Shown: positions 6,113 to 56,296, numbered from the stretch's first letter. The stretch is 64,000 bases of DNA from Candidatus Gastranaerophilales bacterium (GCA_944324165.1 CALUVG010000006.1:1-64000), one strand, 5' to 3'. A program made the numbers and translations. The notes: generated by a model from the sequence alone, not told the origin.

Positions 6113-8074
6113 ATGGCGAATTTCAAAGCTAGATTAAAATCTAAAAGTTTCTTTGTATACTCAACATTAATACATATATTTTTATCTGTAATAATCATAA
6201 TAACTTCATATTTATTTTTTGTACCAAATGTTTACAATTTTATGGTAAGCAATTTTTCGGCGCGGAATCTCGGTGATAAAGACATTGTATTAATTGTTAT
6301 AGACGACAAATCCGTTGATAAGCAGAGGTGGCCGTGGAAACGAGAGTTATATGCAAAGATTTTTGACTACCTGCATGATTATGCACATACTGAAATCATA
6401 GGGTTTGACTCTATACCTTCTGCTCCGGATTACGAAAATCCCGAATCTGATAAAAGATTTTTTGAATCCATTAAACGTATTGACAATTTTGTTGTTGGAT
6501 TTTCTCCGTCTACTGCAGAATATGAAAAAACTCTAGCCGGATATGATAATAAATTTCGCGATAAATTCGCAATAAAAGTTAATGATAATAGAAGTTATAT
6601 ACCTGTTTCAAAATACAAAAGTATATCATATTACCCTGAAGCTTATTTTAATTCCGTGAAATATGCAGGATCTGTAAATAATACACAAAATATAAACGGG
6701 TATCTGGTACAGGCAGACCAGACTGTCACTGTTAATAATGCCGTATACCCTTCACTGGCTTTGCGCATGTATATGTTTCTTAACAAAGCCGATACTCTTA
6801 CACTCACTGATGATAATATTCTGGTAAATGCGACTAATTTAGATATTCCTGCTTTTTCCAGCGCGAACGGAATGCAGACACATATCCATTTTTATAAACG
6901 ATTTAATAATTCGGAATATTCACATCCAAAATATTCTGCAATTGATATTATAGACTCGTACGATGCGCTAAAGTCCGGTAAAACTCCAATTATTGATCCG
7001 GCAGAATTCAATAATAAAATAGTTCTTGTTGGGGCTAATGCAAGAGCGTCTGCACTTGGACTTGAAGATACTGTTCCTACTCCTATGCTGCAAAAGCATC
7101 CGGGAGTTGATATTCAGGCTACAATTCTTGATAACATTATAAATGATGAATTTATAACACTTCCGCCGTTTAGCTGGGAAATAACTATTATTATACTGCT
7201 TTCTATTTTAACATTTGTGCTCATAAGCAGACTTTCGTTCTTTAAATCTCTCAGCGTGCTTATAGCAATAGGTATTGCTTATTTCATATTTTGTATTTTC
7301 GGCTATATAAATGACATGGCATTTGATGTTATAACACCACTTCTTGTTCAGCTTATAACAATGATTTTTGCCTATTCATTCAGGTTTATTCTTGAAGGTA
7401 AAAATAAAGAAAAAATTAAACAGGCTATGGGTAAGTATTTATCTCAGGATATTATGCAGAATGTAGTTAAAAATATTGATGATATAAGACTTGGCGGGAA
7501 AAAAGCTAATGTAACTGTTCTGTTTGCGGATATCAGAGGATTCACCAGTATGAGCGAAAAAATGACTGCAGAAGAAGTTTCAATGATATTAAATGAATAC
7601 TTTAGTGAAATCGAACCTATTATCACAAAATACAACGGTGTAATAAATAAATTCATAGGTGATGCAGTAATGGCAATATTCGGTGAACCGATACAAGATA
7701 TAAATCACCCTACTAATGCTGTAAAATGTGCATATGACATGCTTAAAAAAGTTGATTGGCTTCAAGATAAATGGTTGAATGAAGGCAAACCGAAAATTGA
7801 AATAGGCATTGGTATTAATACCGGAGAAGCTTTTGTAGGTAACATCGGGTCAGAAAAACGTCTTGAGTATACTGTAATCGGCGATATGGTTAATCTGGCA
7901 AGCCGAATAGAAAGTTATAACAAAGTTTACAAAACTAATTTTTTGATAAGCTCCTCCACTTACGCACAGGTCAGTTCTATTGTGGATGTAATTAAAATAA
8001 GCGAAGTTACAATACGTGGAAAATCAAAAAAAATGGATATATATGAGGTCTTGAGAGTCAGCAGCAATGATTGA
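6113..8074 (+). CDS. CHASE2-domain class III adenylate/guanylate cyclase
   Basis: This 653-residue membrane receptor cyclase has a transmembrane helix at about 16-40, an extracytoplasmic CHASE2 sensor at about 50-345, then two or three transmembrane helices to about 430 and a class III cyclase domain at about 455-640. The metal-binding Asp residues lie in VLFADIRGFTSMSE (about 472) and NKFIGDAVMAIFGEP (about 516). The segment LEYTVIGDMVNLASRIE carries the transition-state region. The substrate-selecting Lys in NKFIGD favours ATP over GTP, but this is not decisive. Its stop overlaps the recG start by 8 bases. Confidence 0.92.
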   Translation: MANFKARLKSKSFFVYSTLIHIFLSVIIIITSYLFFVPNVYNFMVSNFSARNLGDKDIVLIVIDDKSVDKQRWPWKRELYAKIFDYLHDYAHTEIIGFDSIPSAPDYENPESDKRFFESIKRIDNFVVGFSPSTAEYEKTLAGYDNKFRDKFAIKVNDNRSYIPVSKYKSISYYPEAYFNSVKYAGSVNNTQNINGYLVQADQTVTVNNAVYPSLALRMYMFLNKADTLTLTDDNILVNATNLDIPAFSSANGMQTHIHFYKRFNNSEYSHPKYSAIDIIDSYDALKSGKTPIIDPAEFNNKIVLVGANARASALGLEDTVPTPMLQKHPGVDIQATILDNIINDEFITLPPFSWEITIIILLSILTFVLISRLSFFKSLSVLIAIGIAYFIFCIFGYINDMAFDVITPLLVQLITMIFAYSFRFILEGKNKEKIKQAMGKYLSQDIMQNVVKNIDDIRLGGKKANVTVLFADIRGFTSMSEKMTAEEVSMILNEYFSEIEPIITKYNGVINKFIGDAVMAIFGEPIQDINHPTNAVKCAYDMLKKVDWLQDKWLNEGKPKIEIGIGINTGEAFVGNIGSEKRLEYTVIGDMVNLASRIESYNKVYKTNFLISSSTYAQVSSIVDVIKISEVTIRGKSKKMDIYEVLRVSSND

Positions 8075-10448
8075 TAACCTTGAACAGCTTAAACGCGCTA
8101 TTGATGTGGAAATAAAACACAAATATATTGATATTCATGGCAAAAGCCAGGCTTTTTCGTCTTTCATAAAAAAAGAGGCTGAACGATATTATAAACTTTC
8201 ACATAAAAATCCTAAGTGGTCAGTAATTATTGAAATTTTTGAACATTATCCTTTTGAAAACGTTACCGGACGCAGACTTGCCATTGACAGGCTTATTAAA
8301 GTTATAAAGTCTGAAGTAGATACAGCAAAAGAGACATCCTCCAAGGATAATACAATAAAGAAACCGGCAGACAAGCTAGATGTAATGTATATAAAAGGAG
8401 TAGGACCCAAAATAGCGTACAAACTCAATAAACTAGGTATTTACACGGCTCAGGATTTAATAACATATTTTCCTAAAAAACATGTGGATTATTCTTCAAG
8501 AACACTTATCCGTAATCTTAAAGAGGGCGAAAACACAACTGTTTTCGGATACATAAGATCTGTAAGCGCATTTAACTCGAAAAATAATTTATCCGTTGTT
8601 AAAGTCAAAGTATTTGATGAGAGCGGCACACTTGAATTAAGTTTTTTCCAGGCAAAATCAAATCGCTATGCACTGGAACGCACAAAGGCACAATTCCCGC
8701 AAGGTGCAGGCATTATGCTTTCCGGTACAGTCAAAATGAATAATTACAGTCATCAACTTACATTCGACAAACCTACTTATTCAATTATGACCGGAGAATT
8801 TCTGGAAAATAGCGCATCTAATCTTAATGTTGCCAGAATTGTACCTGTTTACGGTCTTTGTGAAGATTTAAGTATAAAAGTCCTCAGAAGAGCTATTTAT
8901 AATGCCATTCAGCTTTATAAAGGTGAAATTATAAACATCTTGCCGGAAGAAATCAGAAAAAAATACAATGTTTTAGATAAAAATATTGCTGTTGAACAAA
9001 TACATTTTCCGGAGAGTATGGAAATGTTAGAACAGGCACGTTTCTCCTTAATTTTTGAGGAGTTATTTCTGATACAGTTGAAAATGGTCAGACTTAGAGA
9101 AGAAACTGCAAAAAATCATTCTTCATTGGCTTTAGAAGTACATAAAAATGGTCTGGTTGAAAAATTTATAAAAAGTCTGCCTTTTGAATTAACAGGCGGG
9201 CAAAAAAAGGCTATAAACGAAATCTTAAATGATTTACACTCTGACAAACCTATGGGAAGACTTTTGCAGGGGGATGTAGGAAGCGGTAAAACGGTTGTCG
9301 CTACAGTTATGCTGCTTGCCGGAGTAGAAAACGGATATCAGGGCGCACTTATGGCTCCAACTGAAATTCTTGCTCAACAGCACTACAATAATTTACAGCA
9401 ATGGCTGACTCCGCTTGGACTTAGTGTCGGATTATTTTTGGGAAGTCAGGGGAAAAAAGTTAGAGAAAAATTTCGTACGGATCTGCTTAATGGTCAAATG
9501 AATATTGCGGTCGGAACGCACGCGCTTATTCAAGAAGGAGTAGAATTTAATAATCTTGGCGCGATTGTTGTCGATGAACAGCATAGATTCGGAGTCAAGC
9601 AGCGCAATGTTCTCAAGAAAAAATCCCTAAATCCCCAAATGCTTACAATGACTGCAACTCCTATACCGCGTACACTTGCTTTGACGCTGCATGGAGATTT
9701 AGACCTCACAATTATTGACGAGCTGCCCAAAGGACGATTACCGATAAAAACATCTCTTGTAACCTCTCATAAAAGCGTATATCAACTTATAAAAAAAGAA
9801 GTGGACGCCGGTCGTCAGGCATATGTCGTTTATCCGCTAATAGAAGAAAGCGAAACTTTGTCAGCCAAAGCCGCAACAATTGAGGCGGAAAAATTACAAA
9901 AAGAAATTTTTCCGCAGTTTAGAATAGGACTTCTTCACGGAAAACTAAAAAATGATGAAAAAGAACAAATTATGTCGGATTTTAAAAATCATAAATACGA
10001 TATACTTGTATCGACAACCGTTGTAGAAGTAGGTGTTGATGTACCTAATGCAACAGTCATGCTTATTGAAAACGCAGAACGTTTCGGGCTTTCACAACTT
10101 CACCAATTGCGAGGACGTGTTGGACGTAACGATTTACAATCGTATTGTATTCTGCATACGTCCTCAAAGTCTCAGGAAACAAGGACCAGATTAAATATTA
10201 TGACTGAAACCAATGACGGATTTGTAATTGCTGAAAAAGATCTGCAATTGCGAGGTCCCGGTGAATTTTTAGGCACCCGGCAAAGCGGTCTGCCGGATTT
10301 AATTATCTCGGATATTGTAAGAGATGCAAAAATTCTTGAGCTTGCCAGAAATGAAGCTATACAATTTGTAAAAACTCATGATATATCGCAATACCCTCTT
10401 CTGGAAAAAGTAACTAATCTGCAAATGTACAGTAGTCTTGACATTTAA
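8067..10448 (+). CDS. recG: ATP-dependent DNA helicase RecG
   Basis: This 793-residue branch-migration helicase remodels stalled forks and Holliday junctions. An N-terminal extension of about 100 residues precedes a helix-hairpin-helix-like VMYIKGVGPKIAYKLNKLG and the OB-fold wedge domain. Walker A GDVGSGKT is at about 402-409, the DEQH box is in VVDEQHRFGVKQR at about 501, and motif III is MTATPIPRTLA. The C-terminal helicase half contains STTVVEVGVDVPNA and HQLRGRVGR. The start overlaps the cyclase stop (ATGATTGA), so the two are translationally coupled. Confidence 0.97.
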   Translation: MIDNLEQLKRAIDVEIKHKYIDIHGKSQAFSSFIKKEAERYYKLSHKNPKWSVIIEIFEHYPFENVTGRRLAIDRLIKVIKSEVDTAKETSSKDNTIKKPADKLDVMYIKGVGPKIAYKLNKLGIYTAQDLITYFPKKHVDYSSRTLIRNLKEGENTTVFGYIRSVSAFNSKNNLSVVKVKVFDESGTLELSFFQAKSNRYALERTKAQFPQGAGIMLSGTVKMNNYSHQLTFDKPTYSIMTGEFLENSASNLNVARIVPVYGLCEDLSIKVLRRAIYNAIQLYKGEIINILPEEIRKKYNVLDKNIAVEQIHFPESMEMLEQARFSLIFEELFLIQLKMVRLREETAKNHSSLALEVHKNGLVEKFIKSLPFELTGGQKKAINEILNDLHSDKPMGRLLQGDVGSGKTVVATVMLLAGVENGYQGALMAPTEILAQQHYNNLQQWLTPLGLSVGLFLGSQGKKVREKFRTDLLNGQMNIAVGTHALIQEGVEFNNLGAIVVDEQHRFGVKQRNVLKKKSLNPQMLTMTATPIPRTLALTLHGDLDLTIIDELPKGRLPIKTSLVTSHKSVYQLIKKEVDAGRQAYVVYPLIEESETLSAKAATIEAEKLQKEIFPQFRIGLLHGKLKNDEKEQIMSDFKNHKYDILVSTTVVEVGVDVPNATVMLIENAERFGLSQLHQLRGRVGRNDLQSYCILHTSSKSQETRTRLNIMTETNDGFVIAEKDLQLRGPGEFLGTRQSGLPDLIISDIVRDAKILELARNEAIQFVKTHDISQYPLLEKVTNLQMYSSLDI

Positions 10449-10491
10449 ATCTTTTGTAAACAAATGTAAAGCAAATTTTTTGATATATAGC

Positions 10492-10522
10492 AATTATTTA
10501 AATAGTATATACTTTATATATG
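10492..10522 (+). promoter_or_regulatory. Recurrent AATT-N10-TATATACTTTATATAT motif, copy 1
   Basis: AATT is at 10492, then ten bases, then TATATACTTTATATAT from 10506. Upstream bases GCAATTATTTAA are also shared with copies 2 and 3. The ATG used here is 42 bases after the C of TATATAC. The site is read as a promoter or operator of the glycine-rich gene. Confidence 0.7.
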
Positions 10523-10553
10523 TATAGACGTATATAACATGAGGTATAAAATT

Positions 10554-12206
10554 ATGTCACCACATATTCCTGCATTTTTTAGACACAGACCGATCTACGG
10601 CGGTAGAACATTTAACCACACCGATATTATTAACATCAATGTTGGAGGTGGTCACGGCTGTGGAGGTCATGTAAATCATTGCGGCGGTGGTTTCGGAATG
10701 AGTCGTGCCGGAGCTTGGGCTTGGGGAATAGGTTTATTCACAAGCATGCTCGGCGGATTATTTAATAAGGGCTCACAAACTACAGTAATCCAGCAGCCAA
10801 CTATGATGATGCCTGGATATTCAGGATACAATATGGGATTTAACGCCGGTTTATATACACCGGGCGGTTATAATATGGGATTTAACGCCGGATTGTATGG
10901 CGGCGGTATGCAGGCAGGCGGCTACAATAATGGATATAATACAGGATTTAATGCCGGTTTATATAATAACGGCAACAGTAATCTTGGACAGCTTGGAACT
11001 ATGCAGGGATTATATGGACAGCAGCAAGCACAGTTAACATCCAAAAGTAATGAATTAGCCGCTATGGTCAAAGATTTAAATAATGACTACGGATTTGCAT
11101 TCGGGCAAAATGAAGAAGTGCCGCAAATGAGTGCTAATGGACAGCAGTACACCTATAAAGGTAAGACTTTTGATACTGTAACAGATTTAAGAAACTTTAT
11201 TGAGCAGCAAGAAGGATTGATACAGTCTAGACCTGATACAAATCCTGTTGATACAGAACCGGTAATACATCACGAAGACTTAGAAGAAGATGATGAGGTT
11301 GATAGCTCTGAAGCTGATGATGTCGATACAACTCAGGTACCACCGGGTTCGGAAGATACTGAAGAGACCGAAGAGACAACTCATACAAATCCAACAGGTT
11401 CAGGAAATGAAGACATTGAGGATACTTCTGTCAAACCGGGCAACAGCGATCCGGCAGTATCAGACCCCGAAACTGATCCTGCAGAAGACAGCCACTCCAG
11501 ACAGGTAACTATGACTAAAGCGCAGGCTGATAAAATGATGGACGAATTGATGAATGAATTCGGAAAAATTCCTTCCGGTGTAATTCTAAATTCAAATGGA
11601 ACATTTGATTATGGTGAATATAAAAATCTAAAAATGAGTGCGCTAAAATATGCTGTACGGGCACAAGAAAATTATGATAAAGCACCTGAATCTAAAGTAT
11701 CATACAATAATTTTGTCAATAATGATAAAGACAGAATGTACACTGACGGACAAATAAGTATAACTAAGCAACAACTTTCTAATACGGAAACATATGGGGC
11801 TTTCTTGTTGAGAAATAACCAGGATACATCTATAGAATTAGGCAAACGCACTACGAGTGATTTTGAAAAAACATTTGAAAACATGTTTGAAGACAATGTA
11901 AAAAATGCCAAAACACATATTACAGAACAAGAATTCATAAAATACCACAAAGATTATGAAAACAACGCGAGAAACGGATTTATAAAACGTGATAGTGAAA
12001 GACAAAAATATGATACCGTTGATATGACAGGGGCTGATGAGGCTCATTTGAAAAACGTGTTCTATGCAATGTCTAAAGGTACAGGTTCTGTTACCAAACA
12101 ACAATATGTCCAATTTATGACTGACTTGTTCTCACAACATAGCGGTAAATTAACAAGAGCACAATTAGATGACTTCTGTGTCAACTGGTTAAACAAAAAT
12201 AGTTAA
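10554..12206 (+). CDS. Glycine-rich orphan protein with N-terminal repeats and EF-hand-like C-terminus
   Basis: This is a protein of about 550 residues with no function I can recognise. It has an N-terminal INVGGGHGCGG segment, one hydrophobic stretch (AWAWGIGLFTSMLGGLF), three copies of a YNMGFNAGLY-type decapeptide, an acidic Asp/Glu/Thr/Pro linker, and a helical C-terminus. That C-terminus includes TDGQISITKQQLS and SGKLTRAQLDDFC, which resemble degenerate EF-hands lacking a full DxDxDG loop. There is no signal peptide. The ATG at 10554 is chosen because GAGG lies nine bases upstream; the ATG at 10539 overlaps that site. It shares layout and promoter motif with the next two genes. Confidence 0.75.
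   Translation: MSPHIPAFFRHRPIYGGRTFNHTDIININVGGGHGCGGHVNHCGGGFGMSRAGAWAWGIGLFTSMLGGLFNKGSQTTVIQQPTMMMPGYSGYNMGFNAGLYTPGGYNMGFNAGLYGGGMQAGGYNNGYNTGFNAGLYNNGNSNLGQLGTMQGLYGQQQAQLTSKSNELAAMVKDLNNDYGFAFGQNEEVPQMSANGQQYTYKGKTFDTVTDLRNFIEQQEGLIQSRPDTNPVDTEPVIHHEDLEEDDEVDSSEADDVDTTQVPPGSEDTEETEETTHTNPTGSGNEDIEDTSVKPGNSDPAVSDPETDPAEDSHSRQVTMTKAQADKMMDELMNEFGKIPSGVILNSNGTFDYGEYKNLKMSALKYAVRAQENYDKAPESKVSYNNFVNNDKDRMYTDGQISITKQQLSNTETYGAFLLRNNQDTSIELGKRTTSDFEKTFENMFEDNVKNAKTHITEQEFIKYHKDYENNARNGFIKRDSERQKYDTVDMTGADEAHLKNVFYAMSKGTGSVTKQQYVQFMTDLFSQHSGKLTRAQLDDFCVNWLNKNS
10824..10964 (+). repeat. Three in-frame decapeptide repeats
   Basis: Three near-identical units of about 32 bases start at 10824, 10866 and 10932. 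Each encodes Gly-Tyr-Asn-(Met/Thr)-Gly-Phe-Asn-Ala-Gly-Leu-Tyr. Spacing differs between units, so the copies are separated by variable Gly-rich linkers. Confidence 0.85.
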
Positions 12207-12238
12207 ATTGCACACAAAATCTATCACTAAAAAAATAC

Positions 12239-12270
12239 ATATGACTTCCTTTAAAGGAAGTCATATTTTT
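12239..12270 (+). terminator. Terminator after first glycine-rich gene
   Basis: A perfect palindrome with 12-bp arms (ATGACTTCCTTT and its complement) is followed by a T-rich run. It separates the first two glycine-rich genes into independent units. Confidence 0.85.
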
Positions 12271-12305
12271 ATTAACAAAAGTTAACAATTCATCTCCAAA
12301 AAGGC

Positions 12306-12336
12306 AATTATTTAAAGAATATATACTTTATATATA
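12306..12336 (+). promoter_or_regulatory. Recurrent AATT-N10-TATATACTTTATATATA motif, copy 2
   Basis: GGCAATTATTTAA precedes TATATACTTTATATATA, which starts at 12320. The C of TATATAC is 39 bases before the ATG at 12365, the same distance as in copy 3. Confidence 0.75.
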
Positions 12337-12364
12337 TAAGAGTATAAAATAAGAGGAATACATT

Positions 12365-13210
12365 ATGGCTATGTATAACATGGTCGGGTGCAACACCAGC
12401 CGCACAGCGGCGGGCGGGGTTGCGCTAAGAGCCGGACAATTCAGAGGCTACAAACCAGCAGTAAAAATCCAACAAAATACATATATTAACGAAAAAGTTA
12501 TTATAAATACAAAACAAAATAGCTGTTGTGCGCAACCAGCTCTAGGCTATGTTCAACCACAAGTCGGCTGGATGGATGCACTACCAGCATTTATGACGGG
12601 GTTAGCAAGTCTATTGGGAATATTTAAAAAAGATGACTCAACTCCGGTTGAAGATGGTAAAGGAGGTAAAGATCCTGTTACTCCGCCGACAACACCTCAA
12701 CCTGAAGTAGTCCATAAAGAGACTGTTGCAGATGATCCGGAAATTGAACAGGATCCTAAAGATGTTTATGATGCTAAAATCACACCTAAAACTGTAGAAC
12801 AAGAAGGGGCAACACATACAGTAAAACACGGCGAATGCTGGTATGATGTACTTGATGCAAAATATCCGGGTATCTCTGGGGCTGACAGAAAAGCTGCAAT
12901 GCGTGAACTGAAAAAAGCAAATGGAATGACAAACTTTAATTCAGCAGACATGCCAAGAAAAATGTATCTGCCAAATGAAATTAAAGTTGGGGATAATGTA
13001 TATAAATTAAATAATGATAATAGCGTTGTTGGCACTGTAAAAGAATTTACAGAAGGGGGTATGTACAACGCTCAAATACCAACATCGCAATCCACGACGT
13101 ATGATGTTACCGGTACAAAGAACGGTGAAGATGCATACAGTGCCTCATTTGATTCGCGTGATGCTGCAGTGGCAGCAAGAGATAAATGGTTATCTCAGAA
13201 TGAAGAATAG
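12365..13210 (+). CDS. Glycine-rich orphan protein with LysM-like domain
   Basis: This is a 281-residue protein. The N-terminus has a short INEKVIINTK...CC segment like its neighbours, then a hydrophobic patch (MDALPAFMTGLASLLGIF), a Pro/Glu/Asp-rich linker, and a domain at about 148-215 that resembles LysM. That domain starts THTVKHGECWYDVL and ends PRKMYLPNEIKVGD. LysM modules bind peptidoglycan or chitin. The last 60 residues form a further small domain. No signal peptide is visible, so how it would reach the wall is unclear. The promoter motif and layout are shared with the genes on both sides. Confidence 0.75.
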   Translation: MAMYNMVGCNTSRTAAGGVALRAGQFRGYKPAVKIQQNTYINEKVIINTKQNSCCAQPALGYVQPQVGWMDALPAFMTGLASLLGIFKKDDSTPVEDGKGGKDPVTPPTTPQPEVVHKETVADDPEIEQDPKDVYDAKITPKTVEQEGATHTVKHGECWYDVLDAKYPGISGADRKAAMRELKKANGMTNFNSADMPRKMYLPNEIKVGDNVYKLNNDNSVVGTVKEFTEGGMYNAQIPTSQSTTYDVTGTKNGEDAYSASFDSRDAAVAARDKWLSQNEE

Positions 13211-13211
13211 G

Positions 13212-13243
13212 TACCTCCTGAAGTTAAACAGGAGGTATTTTTT
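13212..13243 (+). terminator. Terminator after LysM-like gene
   Basis: A 9-bp stem, TACCTCCTG/CAGGAGGTA, with an 8-nt loop is followed by seven T residues. Confidence 0.88.
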
Positions 13244-13293
13244 TGCCTGTTAAATTGTTAAGTAATATTAAGCCTAAATTGGCTAAAAAAGGC

Positions 13294-13324
13294 AATTATT
13301 TAACTTATATATACTTTATATATA
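13294..13324 (+). promoter_or_regulatory. Recurrent AATT-N10-TATATACTTTATATATA motif, copy 3
   Basis: GGCAATTATTTAA and TATATACTTTATATATA (from 13308) have the same spacing as copies 1 and 2, 39 bases from the C to the ATG at 13353. It is followed by AAGAGAG, as in the minus-strand copy near 33478. Confidence 0.75.
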
Positions 13325-13352
13325 TAAGAGAGTACAACAAAAGGATACTACA

Positions 13353-14087
13353 ATGAGCATGAATATTGTCGGACGAGGCTATACCAGCACGCCTGTCAAA
13401 ACAATTAAACCTCAATCCTACAACGGTGTTAGAAGCACCGGGTTTAAAGGTGTGAATGTCATTGTAGGCGGCGATACCCATATTAATAAAACAACTATCG
13501 TTAATGTGGACAGTGGCGGCGGTTGTTGTGAAGGCAAAAAATCAAGCTGGGCAGACAAGCTTGTCGGCGGGTTGACACTCGCAACAGGATTGGTTGGACT
13601 TGGCGGAATGATAGCAAGTCTATTTGGCGGTAAAGATAACGTTGAAGGAACTGAAGATCAGGGGGCACCAGAAAATCCGGATAACAATTCGACTGAACCG
13701 GCTAAAGATGATACAGGTACGAATAAAACTCTATTCGGCGGTATGTTACAGGGAGTTACTATAACAGCCAAAGCCCCGGAAGGAGTTAAGGTTAAACCGT
13801 TTGAAAGCAATTTACCTGAAGATATTAATCAGGCTGCTTCCGAACTACAATCTATGTATAGTGGTATTGTTAAAGACATCTCCTTAGAAAAACAAAGTGA
13901 CGGAACCTATAAAGTTACATTCACTTTCCCTGATACTCTTAAATATGGAGGAGACACGGCTGCAATAACAGCTAATTCAATAAAAACATCCGACGATCTG
14001 GATAAAGCACTTGATAAAGCAATGACTCAGCTATATACGGGAAATACGAGCAGTAATCCGTTTGCACCTAAGACTGAAACTGAATAA
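13353..14087 (+). CDS. Glycine-rich orphan protein, third of the cluster
   Basis: This is a 244-residue protein with no recognised family. It repeats the layout of the two preceding proteins: an N-terminal VGGDTHINKTTIVNVDSGGGCC segment of which the INxxTxIxN...GGGCC part is shared, a hydrophobic glycine-rich stretch (VGGLTLATGLVGLGGMIASLF), an acidic linker, and an alpha/beta C-terminal domain. That domain is about 110 residues and starts at VTITAKAPEGV. The ATG at 13353 has AAAGGA upstream. The C-terminal modules differ between the three proteins while the front ends match, which suggests a shared anchoring or sorting region with swapped cargo domains. Confidence 0.75.
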   Translation: MSMNIVGRGYTSTPVKTIKPQSYNGVRSTGFKGVNVIVGGDTHINKTTIVNVDSGGGCCEGKKSSWADKLVGGLTLATGLVGLGGMIASLFGGKDNVEGTEDQGAPENPDNNSTEPAKDDTGTNKTLFGGMLQGVTITAKAPEGVKVKPFESNLPEDINQAASELQSMYSGIVKDISLEKQSDGTYKVTFTFPDTLKYGGDTAAITANSIKTSDDLDKALDKAMTQLYTGNTSSNPFAPKTETE

Positions 14088-14173: not shown

Positions 14174-14608
14174 ATGGAAGATTTAAAAGTTGCAGTAGGC
14201 TCAGACCATGGCGGCTTTCGCTACAAAGAACAAATTATTGAATATTTAAAATCCAGAAATATTCCTTATTTTGATGTCGGTACTCATACGCCGGAAGCTT
14301 GTGATTATCCTATTATTGCAAGAAAAGTTGCAGAGCTTGTAATTTCGGGTCAGGCAAACCGCGGTATTCTTGTCTGCGGTACAGGTATAGGAATGTCTAT
14401 TGCTGCAAATAAAGTAAAAGGAATTAGGGCTGCACTGTGCGGTGATACTTATTCCGCAAGAGTATCACGTGCACATAATAATTCTAATATACTTTGCCTG
14501 GGTGAACGCGTTATTGGTGAACATCTGGCTTTGGATATTGTAGATATCTGGCTGAAAACAGGATTTGAAGGCGGTCGCCACAAACGAAGAGTAGATCTTA
14601 TTGAATAA
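14174..14608 (+). CDS. rpiB: Ribose-5-phosphate isomerase B
   Basis: This is a 144-residue RpiB/LacAB-family isomerase that interconverts ribose-5-phosphate and ribulose-5-phosphate in the pentose phosphate pathway. The N-terminal VGSDHGGFRYK, the active-site Cys in VCGTGIGMSIAANK, and HNNSNILCLGER are diagnostic. Length is normal. It opens a run with rsfS, a TPR gene and a Tic20-like gene on the same strand, and has its own consensus promoter. Confidence 0.96.
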   Translation: MEDLKVAVGSDHGGFRYKEQIIEYLKSRNIPYFDVGTHTPEACDYPIIARKVAELVISGQANRGILVCGTGIGMSIAANKVKGIRAALCGDTYSARVSRAHNNSNILCLGERVIGEHLALDIVDIWLKTGFEGGRHKRRVDLIE

Positions 14609-26199: not shown

Positions 26200-26290
26200 G
26201 CAGCTACCTCACTTTCTATGTTTGCATTATACTGCGCTATTAATTAAAAGTAAATTATTAAGAAATATTAACGATATTCGTGCATTACGC

Positions 26291-26321
26291 AATTTATAAT
26301 TCTAAAAAAACTTTATATAAG
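26291..26321 (+). promoter_or_regulatory. Degenerate copy of the AATT/ACTTTATATA motif
   Basis: GCAATT at 26289 is followed, at the same 15-base offset as in the strict copies, by ACTTTATATAAG. The TATAT half is replaced by an A run. It sits 48 bases before the glycine-zipper gene. Confidence 0.4.
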
Positions 26322-26368
26322 TAAGGTTAGTTATAATAATTTGTGTGTAAAGTTAAGGTAGGTACTCA

Positions 26369-27184
26369 ATGGTAGCAATAGCAAGAGTAGCAAGCAGTAT
26401 TGGTCGTCTTATTTTTGATACGAAGTTTCAAAAAGTTATGACAAACTCCATCAAAGCATCAGGACGCCTTGCTAAAATGCAGGGAAAATCACGATTTGCA
26501 AAATTTGGCAAACAAATCGGTGATGCATTCGTCAGGGCAGAAAAGAAAACAGGTAAAACACCTTTCTTTCAAGATATGAAAAAACTTATCACAACTTATC
26601 CTGCGGATTTAAAAACAGCCTGGAATAGTGCCCCAGGACTTGGCGGTAAAGCAAAAGCCATCTGGAATGCAACAAAATCAAGAGGTCCGCTACTTGGTTA
26701 TGGGTTGCTTGCAGGGTTTGAGGTCCCGAATATTTTGAAAGCGACATCAGAAGATGGAGTAGCAACCGGTGCAGTTGAAGCCGGTAAATCAACAGCAAGA
26801 CTTGCCGGCGGAGCATTAGGGGCATCTATTGCCGGTGCTTTTATTCCTTTTATTGGTCCAATTTTAGGATGGATAGGCGGCGATTATCTGGCTGGTAAAG
26901 TTGTAGGCAAATCTTACACAGAAAAACAGCTTGCACAAGCTGAAAAGACTAAAGAACTTATTGAACAGTCAAAACAAGAAGAACTGGCACAAATGCAGCA
27001 GATGTTTTCCGGATATCCGTCTTCAAATTCTAATGTAGATTTTTCCACAATGCCTTATTATTATGGCATGAATGGTTTGAACGGGTTAGATAACAATTTT
27101 CCTATGCCGACACTTACGAATGAACAGCTAATGCAGTTAGGCAACGCATTATATGGAACGAATAAATTAGATCTTCAAGTATAA
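26369..27184 (+). CDS. Glycine-zipper orphan protein A
   Basis: This is a 271-residue protein without recognised function. Basic N-terminal helices precede a hydrophobic Gly/Ala-rich region at about 110-180 (LAGGALGASIAGAFIPFIG then PILGWIGGDYLAGK). This is a glycine-zipper pattern typical of membrane-inserting or pore-forming segments. A charged coiled-coil helix and a Tyr/Asn/Gly-rich tail follow. It is a paralogue of the next gene, sharing the order E-x-P-N/T-I-x-K, zipper, then Gln/Glu helix. There is no signal peptide. Confidence 0.75.
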   Translation: MVAIARVASSIGRLIFDTKFQKVMTNSIKASGRLAKMQGKSRFAKFGKQIGDAFVRAEKKTGKTPFFQDMKKLITTYPADLKTAWNSAPGLGGKAKAIWNATKSRGPLLGYGLLAGFEVPNILKATSEDGVATGAVEAGKSTARLAGGALGASIAGAFIPFIGPILGWIGGDYLAGKVVGKSYTEKQLAQAEKTKELIEQSKQEELAQMQQMFSGYPSSNSNVDFSTMPYYYGMNGLNGLDNNFPMPTLTNEQLMQLGNALYGTNKLDLQV

Positions 27185-33351: not shown

Positions 33352-33370
33352 AATATCGACAACTGAATAT

Positions 33371-33470
33371 AAAAAAATGCCCCTTAGGAATAAGGGGCTT
33401 TTAAATACTTTTTTAGGAAGGTAGGAATAGGAATTTTCTCTCTCTATTAAACGGATCTAAATTTTATTCT
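33371..33470 (-). ncRNA. Candidate small RNA antisense to the pyk trailer
   Basis: A minus-strand copy of the recurrent AATT/TATATAC motif points into a roughly 100-nt region with no open frame. That region ends at the pyk hairpin, which on this strand is followed by seven T residues and so is a good terminator. The predicted RNA holds two purine blocks, AGAGAGAGAAT and AGAGAGAGAAA. No expression evidence exists, and the start near 33470 is a guess. Confidence 0.45.
33379..33402. terminator. Bidirectional terminator after pyk
   Basis: A perfect 8-bp stem, GCCCCTTA/TAAGGGGC, with loop GGAA has TTTT on the plus side and seven T residues on the minus side. Confidence 0.88.
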
Positions 33471-33477
33471 CTCTCTG

Positions 33478-33508
33478 TATATATAAAGTATATACTTTTT
33501 GTCCAATT
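33478..33508 (-). promoter_or_regulatory. Recurrent AATT-N10-TATATACTTTATATATA motif, copy 4
   Basis: On the minus strand AATT at 33508, ten bases, TATATAC at 33494 and TTTATATATA to 33478 match the other copies exactly. As the core GTATATATAAAGTATATAC is itself a palindrome here, a role for the plus-strand gene at 33671 cannot be excluded. Confidence 0.65.
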
Positions 33509-33609
33509 TCACACTTTTGACTTTTTGTTACAAAACTTAACATAAATATTAGTCTATCGGACAATATCAGCGCATTTTTAAATTAGTCCAAAAAATTTCA
33601 ATCTAACTA

Positions 33610-35485: not shown

Positions 35486-36163
35486 ATGTCTTCTGATAAA
35501 AGAGCTTTTACACTAGCGGAGGTTTTAATTACACTTGCAATAGTTGGAATAATCGCAGCAATAACAATTCCTACTATTGTCAATAAGTATAAAACAACAG
35601 TTGCATCAACCAGACTCAAAAAATTTTACAGTATGATGAGTCAGGCAATACAACTTTCTGAAATTGACAATGGAGAGATTACGACATGGACGAAATCCGA
35701 AGGCGACATAAAAAATGAGGATGAAGAATACGATTATGCTGCGAACTCCAAGGAATGCTATAACTTTTTTGTTAAATATATTGCTCCATATATAAAATAC
35801 ACAGATATAAAAAAGACTCCAGAAAAAGAGAGTCCAGTATCAGAAATGACAGTAAAACTGGCGGATGGGAGCACTATTGAAACTCATAATGGTCAGTGTT
35901 TCGACCTTACATATGATATAAATGGTGAAAAATTACCCAATAAAGATGCACAAGATAAATACACATTTCTTATATGCCCGATTAAACAGTATGCAATTAA
36001 TAATTTAGGCGGCAAACACTTTGGAGCTATGTATCATAATTCACATGCCGCTACCAATAGAGACATGGCTTTAACACTATGCACACAATACCCTCGCTAC
36101 TGCGGTGCGCTTTTACAATTTGACAACTGGGAATTTAAGAATGACTATCCTTATAAATTATAG
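35486..36163 (+). CDS. Type IV pilin-like protein
   Basis: This is a 225-residue protein with a very short leader (MSSDKRA), then F-T-L-A-E with Glu at +5 and the helix VLITLAIVGIIAAITIPTIV. KKFYSMMSQAIQLSEIDNG and the ending DNWEFKNDYPYKL make it a clear paralogue of the protein at 18768. Several Cys are spread through the C-terminal half. AAGGAG precedes the start. The 3' end overlaps the convergent lgt gene by 29 bases. Confidence 0.92.
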   Translation: MSSDKRAFTLAEVLITLAIVGIIAAITIPTIVNKYKTTVASTRLKKFYSMMSQAIQLSEIDNGEITTWTKSEGDIKNEDEEYDYAANSKECYNFFVKYIAPYIKYTDIKKTPEKESPVSEMTVKLADGSTIETHNGQCFDLTYDINGEKLPNKDAQDKYTFLICPIKQYAINNLGGKHFGAMYHNSHAATNRDMALTLCTQYPRYCGALLQFDNWEFKNDYPYKL

Positions 36164-40194: not shown

Positions 40195-41541
40195 TTGTTT
40201 GAGAAATTTACGGAAAAGGCAACAAATGTTGTAATAGAATCACAAAAAGTAGCAAAAGCTTTGAAAGCTCCATGCATTATGCCGGAACATCTTCTGCTGG
40301 CTTTAGCCAGAGAAGCTAAAGGTATTTCATTGAAAATATTTAAATCCTATAATATTACACCGGATGATATTGAACGTGAAATTAAAAAATCCATTCCGGT
40401 AAGCAGTCAGACAAATCTTACTTTTAGTGATGACTATAAGGAACTCTTGAAAAATACACTGGATCTTGCAAACAAATCAGGAAATCCGACAATACTGTAT
40501 GAACATTTGTTTTTAGCCGTGATTAATGACAAAAAATCACATTCTGTAAAAATACTTGAAAATCTCGGGTTTGATATTTATAAATCACGAACATTACTTG
40601 AAAAATTAGTGCAAAAGAAAACAAAAAAACTTTACCATCCGGAAATTGATGATAATAAAGAACAAGAAGATAAGTCGCCTGCTGCTGACAGCCTATTTGA
40701 CAGCGAAGAGGCTGCAAAAGTTTTCCACCGCGCAGTAGCCAAATTATCAACTTCGAATTTTGAAATTCTTGGTACTGAACAAATAATTTCATCAATTCTG
40801 GAAGATAAAGAATCCGAACTGGCACAAATACTTGCAAAATTTGGAGTAACTGAAAAAAAATTTGATGAGAAACTGACCAATACTCAGTCTCGCCAGTCAG
40901 AATATGAAGAACGCCAGATTATTTTTACACCAAATGCTTTTAGAACAATGAATCTTGCACTGCAGACTGCAAAAGAACTCGGGTCATCTGTTGTTTTACC
41001 GGAACATATTGTATTAGGACTTTTAAAAACAAAACGCGGTGTTGCTTATGATATTTTTAAAGAATTAGGGGTATCAGATGATGATCTGGCTCACAGCATT
41101 ATCAAACCAATTGAAAAGCAAATGCCCGAAACCTTAACGATACTGCGACTTGCTAAAGAAGAAGCACGCCGGTTGGGACGCAATATTGTGGGCACAGAAA
41201 TGTTTCTGTTGGGAATAATAGGTGAGGCTACAGGTGTTGGGGCAGAAGTCTTAAAAGAATTAGAAATAACAATAAAAGATGCACGTAATGTTGTCGAAAA
41301 TCTTATTGGATTTGGTAATGAATACTTTGATAAGGAAATAGTATTTACAAAACGCGCTAAACGTGTTCTTGAGGCAGCCTGGGAGCTTGCCAAAAAGGAA
41401 AACAAATCCAAAATTGAATCCTCACACATGCTCCTTGCGCTTACTACTGAACCAACCTGTTTGGCAATGAAGGCTTTGGAGCAGCTTGGTGTTGACGCTG
41501 TCGAAATAAAAGAAGGCGTTAAAAAATTACAAAATCGCTAA
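40195..41541 (+). CDS. Clp_N-repeat protein lacking AAA+ domains
   Basis: This is a 448-residue protein built from six Clp_N half-repeats, that is three full ClpC/ClpA N-domains. They lie at about 1-70, 78-140, 168-230, 243-305, 309-370 and 382-445. Each has a helix-rich pattern ending in E-H-[LI]-[LV]-[LF]-[AG]-[LI], as in MPEHLLLALAREAKG and LPEHIVLGLLKTKRG. No Walker motif is present. Clp_N domains bind adaptors and phospho-Arg substrates, so an adaptor, decoy or sequestering role is likely. It starts with TTG, with GAGGAAG six bases upstream inside the preceding gene. Confidence 0.9.
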   Translation: MFEKFTEKATNVVIESQKVAKALKAPCIMPEHLLLALAREAKGISLKIFKSYNITPDDIEREIKKSIPVSSQTNLTFSDDYKELLKNTLDLANKSGNPTILYEHLFLAVINDKKSHSVKILENLGFDIYKSRTLLEKLVQKKTKKLYHPEIDDNKEQEDKSPAADSLFDSEEAAKVFHRAVAKLSTSNFEILGTEQIISSILEDKESELAQILAKFGVTEKKFDEKLTNTQSRQSEYEERQIIFTPNAFRTMNLALQTAKELGSSVVLPEHIVLGLLKTKRGVAYDIFKELGVSDDDLAHSIIKPIEKQMPETLTILRLAKEEARRLGRNIVGTEMFLLGIIGEATGVGAEVLKELEITIKDARNVVENLIGFGNEYFDKEIVFTKRAKRVLEAAWELAKKENKSKIESSHMLLALTTEPTCLAMKALEQLGVDAVEIKEGVKKLQNR

Positions 41542-43397: not shown

Positions 43398-44567
43398 TTG
43401 TTTAGGAATGCAATAGCACACATTTCAGATTTTTATAATTTAAATAAACACGAAGAATTGTTTAATGTTTTGCAGAAAATAATTCCTTTTAAATCGGGTT
43501 ATATTTTCTTTATTAACCCTGATGAAATTCGTATTGACTGTTCATATAACTCAAAAATAAAGGAAAAAGAATTTTCTATAGACAAAACTCTGGGAGAAGA
43601 ATTATTTCAGGGAATTTTTAGCAGCAAGTTTAAGGACTTTGTAAAAAAGCTGAATATAACGCACGAATACATTGCGGAACCTCTGAAAATTAAAAATACT
43701 ATTTTCGGAATACTTTTGATAGAAGGCGAAAATTTTTCAGAAAATGATAAACTTGTATTTAAATCATGCGCCGCAACAATCGCAAATATTACCAAGGACA
43801 AGGAAATTAATAAAATTATTGCAATGCAAATAAAAGCTCTGCAAGAAAATATTCAGGAAATAAATTCCGAAAATAAAAAAATTAAACAAACTGACGAAAT
43901 TCGAAACAATTTTTTAACGCACGTAAGCCACGAAATCAGAACTCCACTAACATCTATACTGGGTTATTCTGAAATGCTAATAAAAGAACTTGCGGGAAAA
44001 CTCAATGAAAAACAAAAAGAATTCATAAGCGATATACAAATTTCAGGTGTGTACCTTCTTGGAATAATAAACGAAATTCTTGACCTGTCGAAAATAGAGG
44101 CACATTCAATGAAATTACACAGAACTGAATTTGACCTAACAATTGCTATAAATGAGGCTTGTAATATAGTATCTCCGCTTGCAGCCCAAAAAGAAATAGA
44201 TATTGAAACGGAACTTGAGCCTGTTATCATAAATGCAGACTTTCAAAAAATACAGCAAATTATTTTTAATCTTTTAAGCAATGCAATAAAATATACTCCG
44301 ACGGGCGGCAATATTTTTATTAAGGTTGCTAAACAGGATAACTCAGTTGTTATATCTGTAAAAGATAATGGCATAGGAATTTCAAAAGAAAATCACAGCA
44401 AAATATTTGAAAAATTTGAGCAGGCTGCAGTAATAAATAAAGAAATGTCGACAGGTCTGGGATTAGCAATAACAAAAGAATTTGTAAAATTACACAAAGG
44501 AAAAATTAAACTCATCAGTGAACCGAATAAGGGGGCAGAATTCATTATAATTATACCTGTCAAATAG
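43398..44567 (+). CDS. Soluble sensor histidine kinase with GAF-like input
   Basis: This is a 389-residue kinase without membrane helices. About 150 N-terminal residues look like a GAF/PAS-type sensor, then a short coiled coil, the H-box HVSHEIRTPLTSILGYSEML and a HATPase_c domain. The latter has N-box NLLSNAIKYTPTGG, G1 DNGIGI, and TGLGLAI. It has no response regulator next to it, so it is an orphan. It starts with TTG immediately after the hpt stop, which suggests translational coupling at the end of the operon. Confidence 0.92.
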   Translation: MFRNAIAHISDFYNLNKHEELFNVLQKIIPFKSGYIFFINPDEIRIDCSYNSKIKEKEFSIDKTLGEELFQGIFSSKFKDFVKKLNITHEYIAEPLKIKNTIFGILLIEGENFSENDKLVFKSCAATIANITKDKEINKIIAMQIKALQENIQEINSENKKIKQTDEIRNNFLTHVSHEIRTPLTSILGYSEMLIKELAGKLNEKQKEFISDIQISGVYLLGIINEILDLSKIEAHSMKLHRTEFDLTIAINEACNIVSPLAAQKEIDIETELEPVIINADFQKIQQIIFNLLSNAIKYTPTGGNIFIKVAKQDNSVVISVKDNGIGISKENHSKIFEKFEQAAVINKEMSTGLGLAITKEFVKLHKGKIKLISEPNKGAEFIIIIPVK

Positions 44568-50828: not shown

Positions 50829-51308
50829 CTATCTTAAATTGTTAATATTAGATTGTGCAAGAGCAGATTCACATGCCTGTTCTGATATTACACCGTTATG
50901 CACTAATCCTTCGCAGGCTCTATCAAATGCTTTATTGACATGATGTTCAACAAGGGAACATATATCTTCGTAAGGCAAGTGTTGCAACAATGCCTGCATT
51001 GCAATTTCATATATAGTAAATCCAACCTTTTGTAAAATACTTTCATGATAGCGAGCCGGAATATCAGAACGAAGTAAATCAATATATTTGTGGAAAGTCC
51101 ATTCTGAAAGTATTTGTGTCATTACCTGAGCATCAATAGGTGACTTAATATTTTTATCCTTTGAAAGTGCTTCACCGGTAATCAAAGTAAATTTGTAAAC
51201 CGTATCGAGAAAAATTGTCTTATGATTTTCTTCAATGTCTACCGGCAAATTTTTAGCTGCTTCATTTCTAAAATCAATTGCAAGTTTTTTGTAATCAAAT
51301 TTTTTCAT
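50829..51308 (-). CDS. Helical orphan protein
   Basis: This is a 159-residue soluble, all-helical protein with no recognised domain. It begins MKKFDYKKLAIDFRNEAAKN and contains YIDLLRSDIPARYHESILQKV and two Cys near the C-terminal third. AAAGGGG precedes the start. It lies between the large 708-residue orphan gene and the CpaE-like gene on the same strand and may be co-transcribed with the latter. Confidence 0.7.
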   Translation of the reverse strand: MKKFDYKKLAIDFRNEAAKNLPVDIEENHKTIFLDTVYKFTLITGEALSKDKNIKSPIDAQVMTQILSEWTFHKYIDLLRSDIPARYHESILQKVGFTIYEIAMQALLQHLPYEDICSLVEHHVNKAFDRACEGLVHNGVISEQACESALAQSNINNLR

Positions 51309-53488: not shown

Positions 53489-53604
53489 AAATCTACTATT
53501 TTCCCCTATACATTATTATAAAAACAATTTTCCGGAAAAAATTGCGCATAATCTCGTTTTTATCCATATATGTAACGAAATGTAACAAGTTAGGTGTTTT
53601 GTGA

Positions 53605-53635
53605 AATTCGCACTTGAATATATACTTTATATATA
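53605..53635 (+). promoter_or_regulatory. Recurrent AATT-N10-TATATACTTTATATATA motif, copy 5
   Basis: GTGAAATT, ten bases, then TATATACTTTATATATA starting at 53619. The GTGAAATT half is shared with copy 4. The C of TATATAC is 44 bases before the 53669 start codon. Confidence 0.75.
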
Positions 53636-53668
53636 CATAAGAAACAAACACGAGAAGAGAGGCTTGAT

Positions 53669-53839
53669 ATGGCAGTTAAAGATTTGAAGAAAATTGATGA
53701 TAAATTGAAAGATCTTTATAGTAATCAAATCACAACAGCAGCCCCACCGGCACAGGCATATGAAGACAGGTCTGAAGTATTATTTGCACAGATGAACTTC
53801 ATAGCAATGGCAAACCGGCAAGCCCTGCATCTGATATAA
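53669..53839 (+). CDS. 56-residue orphan protein under the recurrent motif
   Basis: This is a short frame, ATG at 53669 to TAA at 53837-53839, encoding MAVKDLKKIDDKLKDLYSNQ, a Pro/Ala linker and a C-terminal helix with MNFIAMANRQALHLI. AGAGG lies at the right distance, the recurrent promoter motif lies upstream, and a strong terminator follows about 50 bases after. These three signals make it a likely gene despite its size. No family is recognised. Confidence 0.7.
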   Translation: MAVKDLKKIDDKLKDLYSNQITTAAPPAQAYEDRSEVLFAQMNFIAMANRQALHLI

Positions 53840-55369: not shown

Positions 55370-56296
55370 CTATTTATCACTGCAAGACTGCTTACCTTCC
55401 CAGGATAAGTCGTCACAATGTAAATAATCCATATTACTGTTTTTTATAATCCAGGCAGTACAGCCATAACCACTGTTAGCTGGATACACCGGATCATTAT
55501 TACAGGAATTATCAAATGAATGGGAGTTCTGCTCATTATTATCACTTGCCAGATCTCCCATAGGCGTAATTCTATCCGGATTAGCGATAAAATAAAATAT
55601 ATCCTTACCGGTTGAATTAGGCGGATTTTTTATACCGTTAACATCTATTGCAAAATCCGCGCACCAATCATTTTTATCCTTACAGCCTTCATAAATCCAG
55701 CCGCCCAATAATGTCATGCCGTCATTCAATGTAAAAAACGAGTAGTTCGATAAATCAAGATTTCTTGCATCACCTTGCAAATCATATAATTTATCCGGCT
55801 TATAGCAGTTGTTTTGGGATGACAAACACTTTTCCGTTATATTTAAGTGTTTTCCCAATAGCTCCCAGAATAATTGTGTATTTTTGGCTGAATCACCTAT
55901 CCACACATTATTACCTTCATCGTCAGCTTCAAATTCATTTCCGCCGTTAAATCCCCAGCTGTTAAATTCACCTTCAGAAGCCAGCGCCATTTTATATGCA
56001 GAATTCAGAACAGAATAAGCTTTTTTAACTCTGGTGACAGTTTCCCGCTCCTGATATTTTTGTACAAGTGACGGAATTGTCATTGCAGCAACAACACCTA
56101 TAATTGCAAGTGTGATTAGGACTTCAGCGAGAGTGAAGGCGGTCTTGCGGAAAAACACTAAGGATTTACATGAGGCTGGTTCTGTAGTTTCGTGAATGGC
56201 TTTACCCTCTCCCTTTGAGAGAAGGAAATATCTATTATGTTCGTTATTTAGAATAGTCACTCTACTTACCTTACTGGCTTCTAAAAATTTTTCCAT
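55370..56296 (-). CDS. Type IV pilin-like protein with long leader
   Basis: This is a 308-residue protein with the prepilin segment F-T-L-A-E followed by VLITLAIIGVVAAMTIPSLV and a Cys-rich body (several CxxxxC pairs, ending GKQSCSDK). The leader before the cleavage point is about 53 residues, far longer than the usual 5-30; GGAGA precedes the ATG at 56296 and no closer ATG exists, though a GTG lies seven codons before the cleavage site. Body sequence differs from the other two pilins. It is divergent from an AbrB-like gene. Confidence 0.85.
   Translation of the reverse strand: MEKFLEASKVSRVTILNNEHNRYFLLSKGEGKAIHETTEPASCKSLVFFRKTAFTLAEVLITLAIIGVVAAMTIPSLVQKYQERETVTRVKKAYSVLNSAYKMALASEGEFNSWGFNGGNEFEADDEGNNVWIGDSAKNTQLFWELLGKHLNITEKCLSSQNNCYKPDKLYDLQGDARNLDLSNYSFFTLNDGMTLLGGWIYEGCKDKNDWCADFAIDVNGIKNPPNSTGKDIFYFIANPDRITPMGDLASDNNEQNSHSFDNSCNNDPVYPANSGYGCTAWIIKNSNMDYLHCDDLSWEGKQSCSDK

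Follow-up and report, generated by a model that had tools for sequence, protein, structure and literature searches.

Three genes with a shared N-terminal region and exchanged C-terminal modules in the recG-rpiB slot of a Candidatus Gastranaerophilales bacterium, and a possible route of export

Effector families such as the MIX-type type VI effectors carry one N-terminal marker on many unrelated C-termini. Among cyanobacterial regulators, RpaB binds the HLR1 consensus (PMC11633204), and an upstream position of HLR1 goes with activation (PMC11633204, PMC6331805). Partial flagellar gene sets in genomes of the kind studied here have been interpreted as the outcome of flagellum loss (PMC3787301, PMC4040986). 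Here we describe three adjacent genes, A, B and C, in a 64,000-nucleotide (nt) stretch of DNA (GCA_944324165.1 CALUVG010000006.1:1-64000; the whole stretch is called the window) from Candidatus Gastranaerophilales bacterium, an uncultured gut relative of cyanobacteria. Its closest named relatives are metagenome-assembled genomes under the same label, and little is known of the contact of this uncultured order with its host. An earlier interpretation of the window from its letters alone (the sequence-only reading) had proposed that the three proteins combine a common front end with different tails. The genomes compared below are metagenome-assembled, the searches sample the family and the class, and the bacterium's own genome was searched with models plus a few stretches. 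The genes occupy the slot between recG and rpiB:

8067-10448, + strand: recG, left flank of the slot (NCBIfam RecG, E 2.4e-267)
10450-10533, + strand: leader of A, with TGTAAA-N4-TGTAAA at 10455-10470, then GCAATT and TATATACTTTATATATGTA; leader model 46.5 bits, E 6.6e-12; conserved in six species
10554-12206, + strand: gene A, with its front end at about 10554-10778, the Gly-rich hydrophobic stretch at 10707-10763 and a tail, probably degenerate EF-hand-like, at about 11481-12203
12239-12266, + strand: terminator-like hairpin after A
12264-12348, + strand: leader of B (49.2 bits with the leader model, E 9.0e-13), its direct repeat at 12270-12285
12365-13210, + strand: gene B, with its front end at about 12365-12634, the hydrophobic stretch at 12569-12625 and a LysM-like domain at about 12803-13006
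13209-13240, + strand: terminator-like hairpin after B
13251-13336, + strand: leader of C (54.8 bits with the leader model, E 1.6e-14), its direct repeat at 13256-13271
13353-14087, + strand: gene C, with its front end at about 13353-13637, the hydrophobic stretch at 13560-13616 and a tail without domain assignment at about 13725-14072
14174-14608, + strand: rpiB, right flank of the slot (NCBIfam rpiB, E 1.6e-57)

All three open reading frames (ORFs) are real, and terminator-like hairpins stand behind the first two, as had been claimed; a hairpin scan 3' of gene C gave none. For gene A we prefer the start at 10554 over that of the longest ORF at 10539, because four of five orthologues have their first Met aligned there (MVHIPPYF vs. 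MSPHIPAFF) and because GAGG lies just upstream. Two lines of evidence bear out the common N-terminal region. In pairwise Smith-Waterman alignments of residues 1-110, none of 2000 shuffles was as good as the B-C pair and 7 of 2000 were as good as the A-C pair, while the A-B pair was not significant. A front-end profile from other genera, built without the bacterium's own genus, ranked B, A and C as the top three of the 235 window ORFs (E 2.6e-8, 2.8e-7 and 2.1e-6; fourth-best ORF, E 0.42), 600 shuffles reaching at most 13.5 bits against 22-29 bits for the three proteins. The front end covers about 80-110 residues, in which predicted (I/F)N-x5-N strands of polar character occur together with a patch rich in Cys, Gly and His and a predicted hydrophobic helix rich in Gly, and the acidic linker between it and the tail is probably disordered. 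Some particulars of the sequence-only reading had to be amended: the motif spacing given as I-N-x6-N is (I/F)-N-x5-N; the GGG/CC segment is present as the Cys/Gly/His-rich patch but is not one motif; and the hydrophobic Gly-rich stretch is real but only a borderline membrane segment, with Kyte-Doolittle values of 1.2-1.8 over 19 residues (0.7-2.1 in relatives).

The front end was detected in 41 of 146 genomes in the family search and in 51 of 194 in the class search, all 51 within one Gastranaerophilales family. As far as searched, the front end and the modular proteins that carry it are confined to that one Gastranaerophilales family. When 43 such proteins were divided, their first 105 residues formed one single-linkage cluster and their remainders nine (one of the 43 was too short to have a tail), under a low-complexity filter and with the lenience that single linkage brings. 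One front-end cluster against nine tail clusters amounts to module exchange rather than shared composition. Neither result that would have refuted the sequence-only reading was obtained: homologues with the same front end on other cargo were found, and the N-terminal similarity is significant. The LysM-like tail group holds 11 of the 43 proteins, from this genus and several others, and a second group of 11 carries a CRDASGKT-type domain; the remaining groups are smaller, and the tails of A and C clustered with those of no other genus. The recG-rpiB slot holds one to three front-end genes in most genera examined, with front-end genes or divergent relatives lying outside it in a few (L087, L092, L192, L193). 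Within the bacterium's own genus, the order and tails of A, B and C were the same in all six species searched. We rejected a mobile or phage element at this locus on the grounds of its fixed recG and rpiB flanks, the conserved gene order in the genus and the lack of a significant PHROG match. A polymorphic toxin was likewise unsupported, neither a toxin domain nor an immunity-like gene being seen.

Pfam, NCBIfam and PHROGs gave no significant match to A, B or C, and a PDB sequence search with A and B gave no meaningful one. The C-terminus of B may be LysM-like, as proposed, and its profile and structure model lend this support. A Pfam search with B itself did not find LysM, but two of the 16 members of the B-tail alignment reach Pfam LysM (best E 0.0095), and in PDB the best hit of the B-tail profile was the LysM endopeptidase LytE (E 0.0055), followed by a structure of LysM (E 0.11). 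The model of B is of low confidence overall (predicted local distance difference test, pLDDT, 55) with a domain at about 65-81, in which a strand (residues 148-152), two helices (159-166 and 172-185) and a second strand (199-203) follow one another. Several LysM chains align to residues 146-222 with Z of 2.2-3.3, low for so small a domain, the best being 4uz2 (1.9 A over 47 residues). For the tail of A the proposed EF-hand-like character is plausible, but it is degenerate and the evidence is weak: residues 445-550 give a weak match to a clear EF-hand protein (E 7.5e-4), the tail model shows helix-short strand-helix units at pLDDT 47, the Foldseek list includes many EF-hand proteins, none significant, and by eye the loops do not have canonical calcium ligands. 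We regard it as probably a degenerate EF-hand module. Foldseek gave no match at E<=0.001 with either model, both of low confidence, and our fold claims therefore stop at LysM-like and EF-like. Further signal-peptide-free proteins with a LysM-like domain were seen at L014, L017, L020 and L025, some with EF-hands and Gly-rich hydrophobic stretches; the one at L017 has a weak C-terminal J-domain match.

Each of the three genes had been said to have its own promoter motif, and similar leaders indeed precede all three in six of six species of the genus, the copy before B of G005 being weaker. In layout, a TGTWAM-N4-TGTWAM direct repeat is followed by GCAATT and then TATATACTTTATATATATAAGAG, with 37-39 nt from the end of the repeat to TACTTT in the 30 leaders measured; across 28 sequences, 23 columns of the alignment do not vary. 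Of 34 front-end genes in other genera, 32 are preceded by the leader at a constant spacing, and its conservation is far above that of the proteins. Such conservation, together with the variation in gene number (1-3) and tail type within one syntenic slot, is what might be expected if the leader were chiefly a recombination site for cassette exchange rather than a promoter. We consider this very improbable, in view of the stable gene order across the six species and of the leader's presence at some 20 places elsewhere in the genome, ahead of single genes unrelated to these or of units that lack an ORF, a distribution that a promoter would have.

The direct repeat matches the reverse complement of the published HLR1 consensus, a cyanobacterial one taken from PMC11633204, at a mean of 14.6 of 16 letters over 28 leaders, against 11.1 for Markov shuffles (standard deviation 0.18, maximum 11.75). 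If TATACT is the -10 element, the repeat would lie about 50-65 nt upstream of the start, on the activating side of HLR1. Matches in a sigma-70 consensus scan were no commoner than in shuffles, so the leader does not look like a promoter of the usual TTGACA/TATAAT kind. As a possible partner of the regulator we weighed the histidine kinase at 43398-44567 and dismissed it, the adjoining ORF being a membrane protein and not a response regulator.

A leader model made from sequence only, with 28 leaders from other genera, recovered the leaders of C, B and A as the best three sites in the bacterium's own genome, among 26 at E<0.01. At most of these sites an ORF starts no more than a few tens of bases away. 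About 25 transcription units would on this evidence form one regulon under one promoter, composed of the HLR1-like repeat, GCAATT and TATATACTTTATATATA. Nine other genomes of the family have 7-33 leader sites and three other families of the order 6-14; of two genomes from other orders, one has none and the other has one. Besides the A-B-C cluster, three units lie in the window:

26251-27184, + strand: regulon unit with a weaker leader (26251-26329) and a 271-residue protein (26369-27184) that has a Gly-rich hydrophobic region
33365-33548, - strand: ORF-less unit of leader (33468-33548) and about 100 nt with a GC hairpin and T-run, a candidate small RNA
53566-53839, + strand: regulon unit with leader (53566-53645) and a 56-residue ORF (53669-53839); a 57-residue look-alike stands behind the same leader in another genus

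Most regulon products belong to no known family. Domain search identified one as an SLT transglycosylase, and another is possibly a beta-barrel, below the cut-off; by eye only, we noted one protein with HEXXH, one that resembles NlpC/CHAP and a few in which Cys/Gly patches accompany hydrophobic stretches. In another genus a Pfam-confirmed LysM protein, without a signal peptide, stands behind such a leader. By simple hydropathy, judged against six hand-picked Sec-type controls rather than by a trained predictor, a Sec-like N-terminus is seen in all six controls and in none of the 24 regulon proteins: over the first 32 residues, the highest value for a 10-residue stretch is -0.13 to 1.67 in the regulon proteins and 2.11-3.18 in the controls. 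The statement that A, B and C have no classical signal peptide holds by the same measure.

How, then, would such proteins leave the cytoplasm, if they do? The main rival to the export reading developed below is that they are signal-anchor proteins, the Gly-rich helix (about residues 57-88) serving as an uncleaved anchor for Sec, the signal recognition particle or YidC, with the N-terminus inside, the linker and tail in the periplasm and the LysM-like domain on peptidoglycan, the type III apparatus then being unrelated. Each protein does have one hydrophobic stretch, in the same relative place before the acidic linker, and a LysM-like tail suits the periplasm; the hydropathy of that stretch is however borderline, in A, B and C as in relatives, and other regulon products without a Sec-like N-terminus, such as the SLT protein, would need a second route. 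On balance we hold this rival to be possible but somewhat unlikely. It is improbable, in our judgment, that the proteins stay in the cytoplasm or on the inner face of the membrane, with tails that work inside the cell (e.g., in the stress response, in cell division or in storage) while the front end serves as a membrane-associated oligomerisation segment: the missing signal peptide and the resemblance of the regulator type to a stress regulon of photosynthetic relatives would fit, but the LysM-like and transglycosylase domains of the regulon act on peptidoglycan.

Four strong leader copies have no ORF of note and are followed by hairpins and T-runs or by C/U-rich stretches such as CTACCTACTAC. 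We take the ORF-less units to be candidate co-regulated small RNAs, which could pair with ribosome-binding sites. Rfam found only one tRNA in the 64-kb window and left the candidate copy there unmatched. Copies of this kind were recorded at 33365-33548 (- strand) and at L109, L110, L117, L169, L170 and L172, with C/U-rich CTACCTACTAC or CCTACCTTCC and usually a hairpin and T-run.

The genome also encodes a candidate export apparatus. FlhA/SctV was found in 39 of 39 relatives, and Flagellin_N in 21; it is absent from the other 18, which include all six genomes of the genus, and from the bacterium's own genome. The own FlhA closes an operon, FliE-FliF-X-FliH-FlhA, with Pfam matches to FHIPEP (E 3.9e-220), YscJ_FliF (E 4.8e-31) and FliH (E 5.1e-25). 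Since only fliE reaches its NCBIfam equivalog cut-off, the operon is typical neither of flagella nor of injectisomes; four other genera have these five genes in that order. In a tree built from 25 FlhA proteins there are two clades with 100/100 support, one of copies from flagellin-bearing genomes and the other (FlhA2) present in all genomes, also beside the first. FlhA2 of this genus is 88-91% identical to that of three other non-flagellate genera and is therefore under strong constraint. We read fliE-fliF-X-fliH-flhA2 as a maintained non-flagellar export apparatus, of which the regulon is the probable clientele; the partial flagellar sets of Gastranaerophilales genomes may, we suggest, be a maintained export machine. 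Two partial look-alikes were also seen: a 159-residue protein at 50829-51308 of the window (- strand), 38% identical to the N-terminal half of the 339-residue protein X between FliF and FliH, and a 491-residue protein (L160:18015-19490, G000:C21) that has the C-terminal cytoplasmic half of FlhA only, on an unrelated N-terminus, with a copy in nearly all relatives searched.

A mechanism that would join the shared front end, the exchanged tails, the leader and its regulon, the missing Sec-like N-termini and the conserved apparatus core runs as follows. A candidate OmpR-family regulator of the RpaB/WalR type would switch the regulon genes on, and products without Sec signals would exit the cytoplasm via the fliE-fliF-X-fliH-flhA2 apparatus; the front end would direct its proteins there and then embed in the membrane, leaving the tails displayed in or beyond the cell wall. 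In the reading we find most likely, A, B and C are co-regulated modular proteins of envelope type that depend on the front end for targeting or anchoring and are exported by this apparatus, although our confidence in it falls somewhat short of even. The surface or secreted location and the sorting role that the sequence-only reading gave to the front end would likewise follow from the type of cargo, the regulon and the candidate apparatus. Several points weigh against it. The apparatus operon has no copy of the leader; the front end was undetected in many genomes of the family that have the apparatus; and the apparatus is known here from five core genes. The hydrophobic helix might just as well act as a signal anchor of the Sec/YidC route, the tie of front end and regulon to the apparatus draws on co-occurrence and the lack of other signals, and the repeat is what suggests a regulator of RpaB type. 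More tentatively still, these non-photosynthetic gut relatives of cyanobacteria may maintain type III export of a dedicated, non-flagellar kind, served by a regulon of about 25 units of HLR1/RpaB type, small RNAs included, in which the recG-rpiB cluster would be the variable, cargo-swapping part that displays modules, peptidoglycan-binding ones among them, beyond the inner membrane.

The promoter can serve as a label, by which sequence alone lists a likely export- or envelope-related gene set, and the leader may show what the site of a cyanobacterial stress regulator targets in relatives without photosynthesis. Should the front end truly serve as a signal for export or display, the module that does so is a small one. 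Elsewhere in the window, pilin-like proteins with an FTLAEVLITL N-terminus are encoded at 35486-36163 (+ strand) and 55370-56296 (- strand), with many such genes in related loci, and a 448-residue protein at 40195-41541 (+ strand) has several Clp_N-type repeat matches and no ATPase part.

Set beside the systems known elsewhere, the proteins resemble MIX-type effectors in architecture, but here the genes have a fixed place in the chromosome and a promoter in common, and the proteins include a hydrophobic helix. B and its relatives have the YxVxxGExWYxI...LP motif and, as modelled, the beta-alpha-alpha-beta order of the LysM domain, but B lies below Pfam detection and one relative has an insertion after the second helix. 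As in the type III systems and the flagellar export apparatus, homologues of FliE, FliF, FliH and FlhA are encoded in one operon, here in genomes without flagellin; FlhA2 however forms a separate deep clade, and the fliE gene is alone in meeting its equivalog cut-off. With the RpaB regulon the leader shares a direct repeat of 10-bp period that fits (G/T)TTACAWWNN(G/T)TTACAWW on the opposite strand, in an upstream position. It differs in its additional conserved GCAATT and TATATACTTTATATATA and in a regulator that is a candidate only, and, unlike the cyanobacterial regulon, it belongs to a non-photosynthetic bacterium, with envelope-type proteins without signal peptides as its targets.

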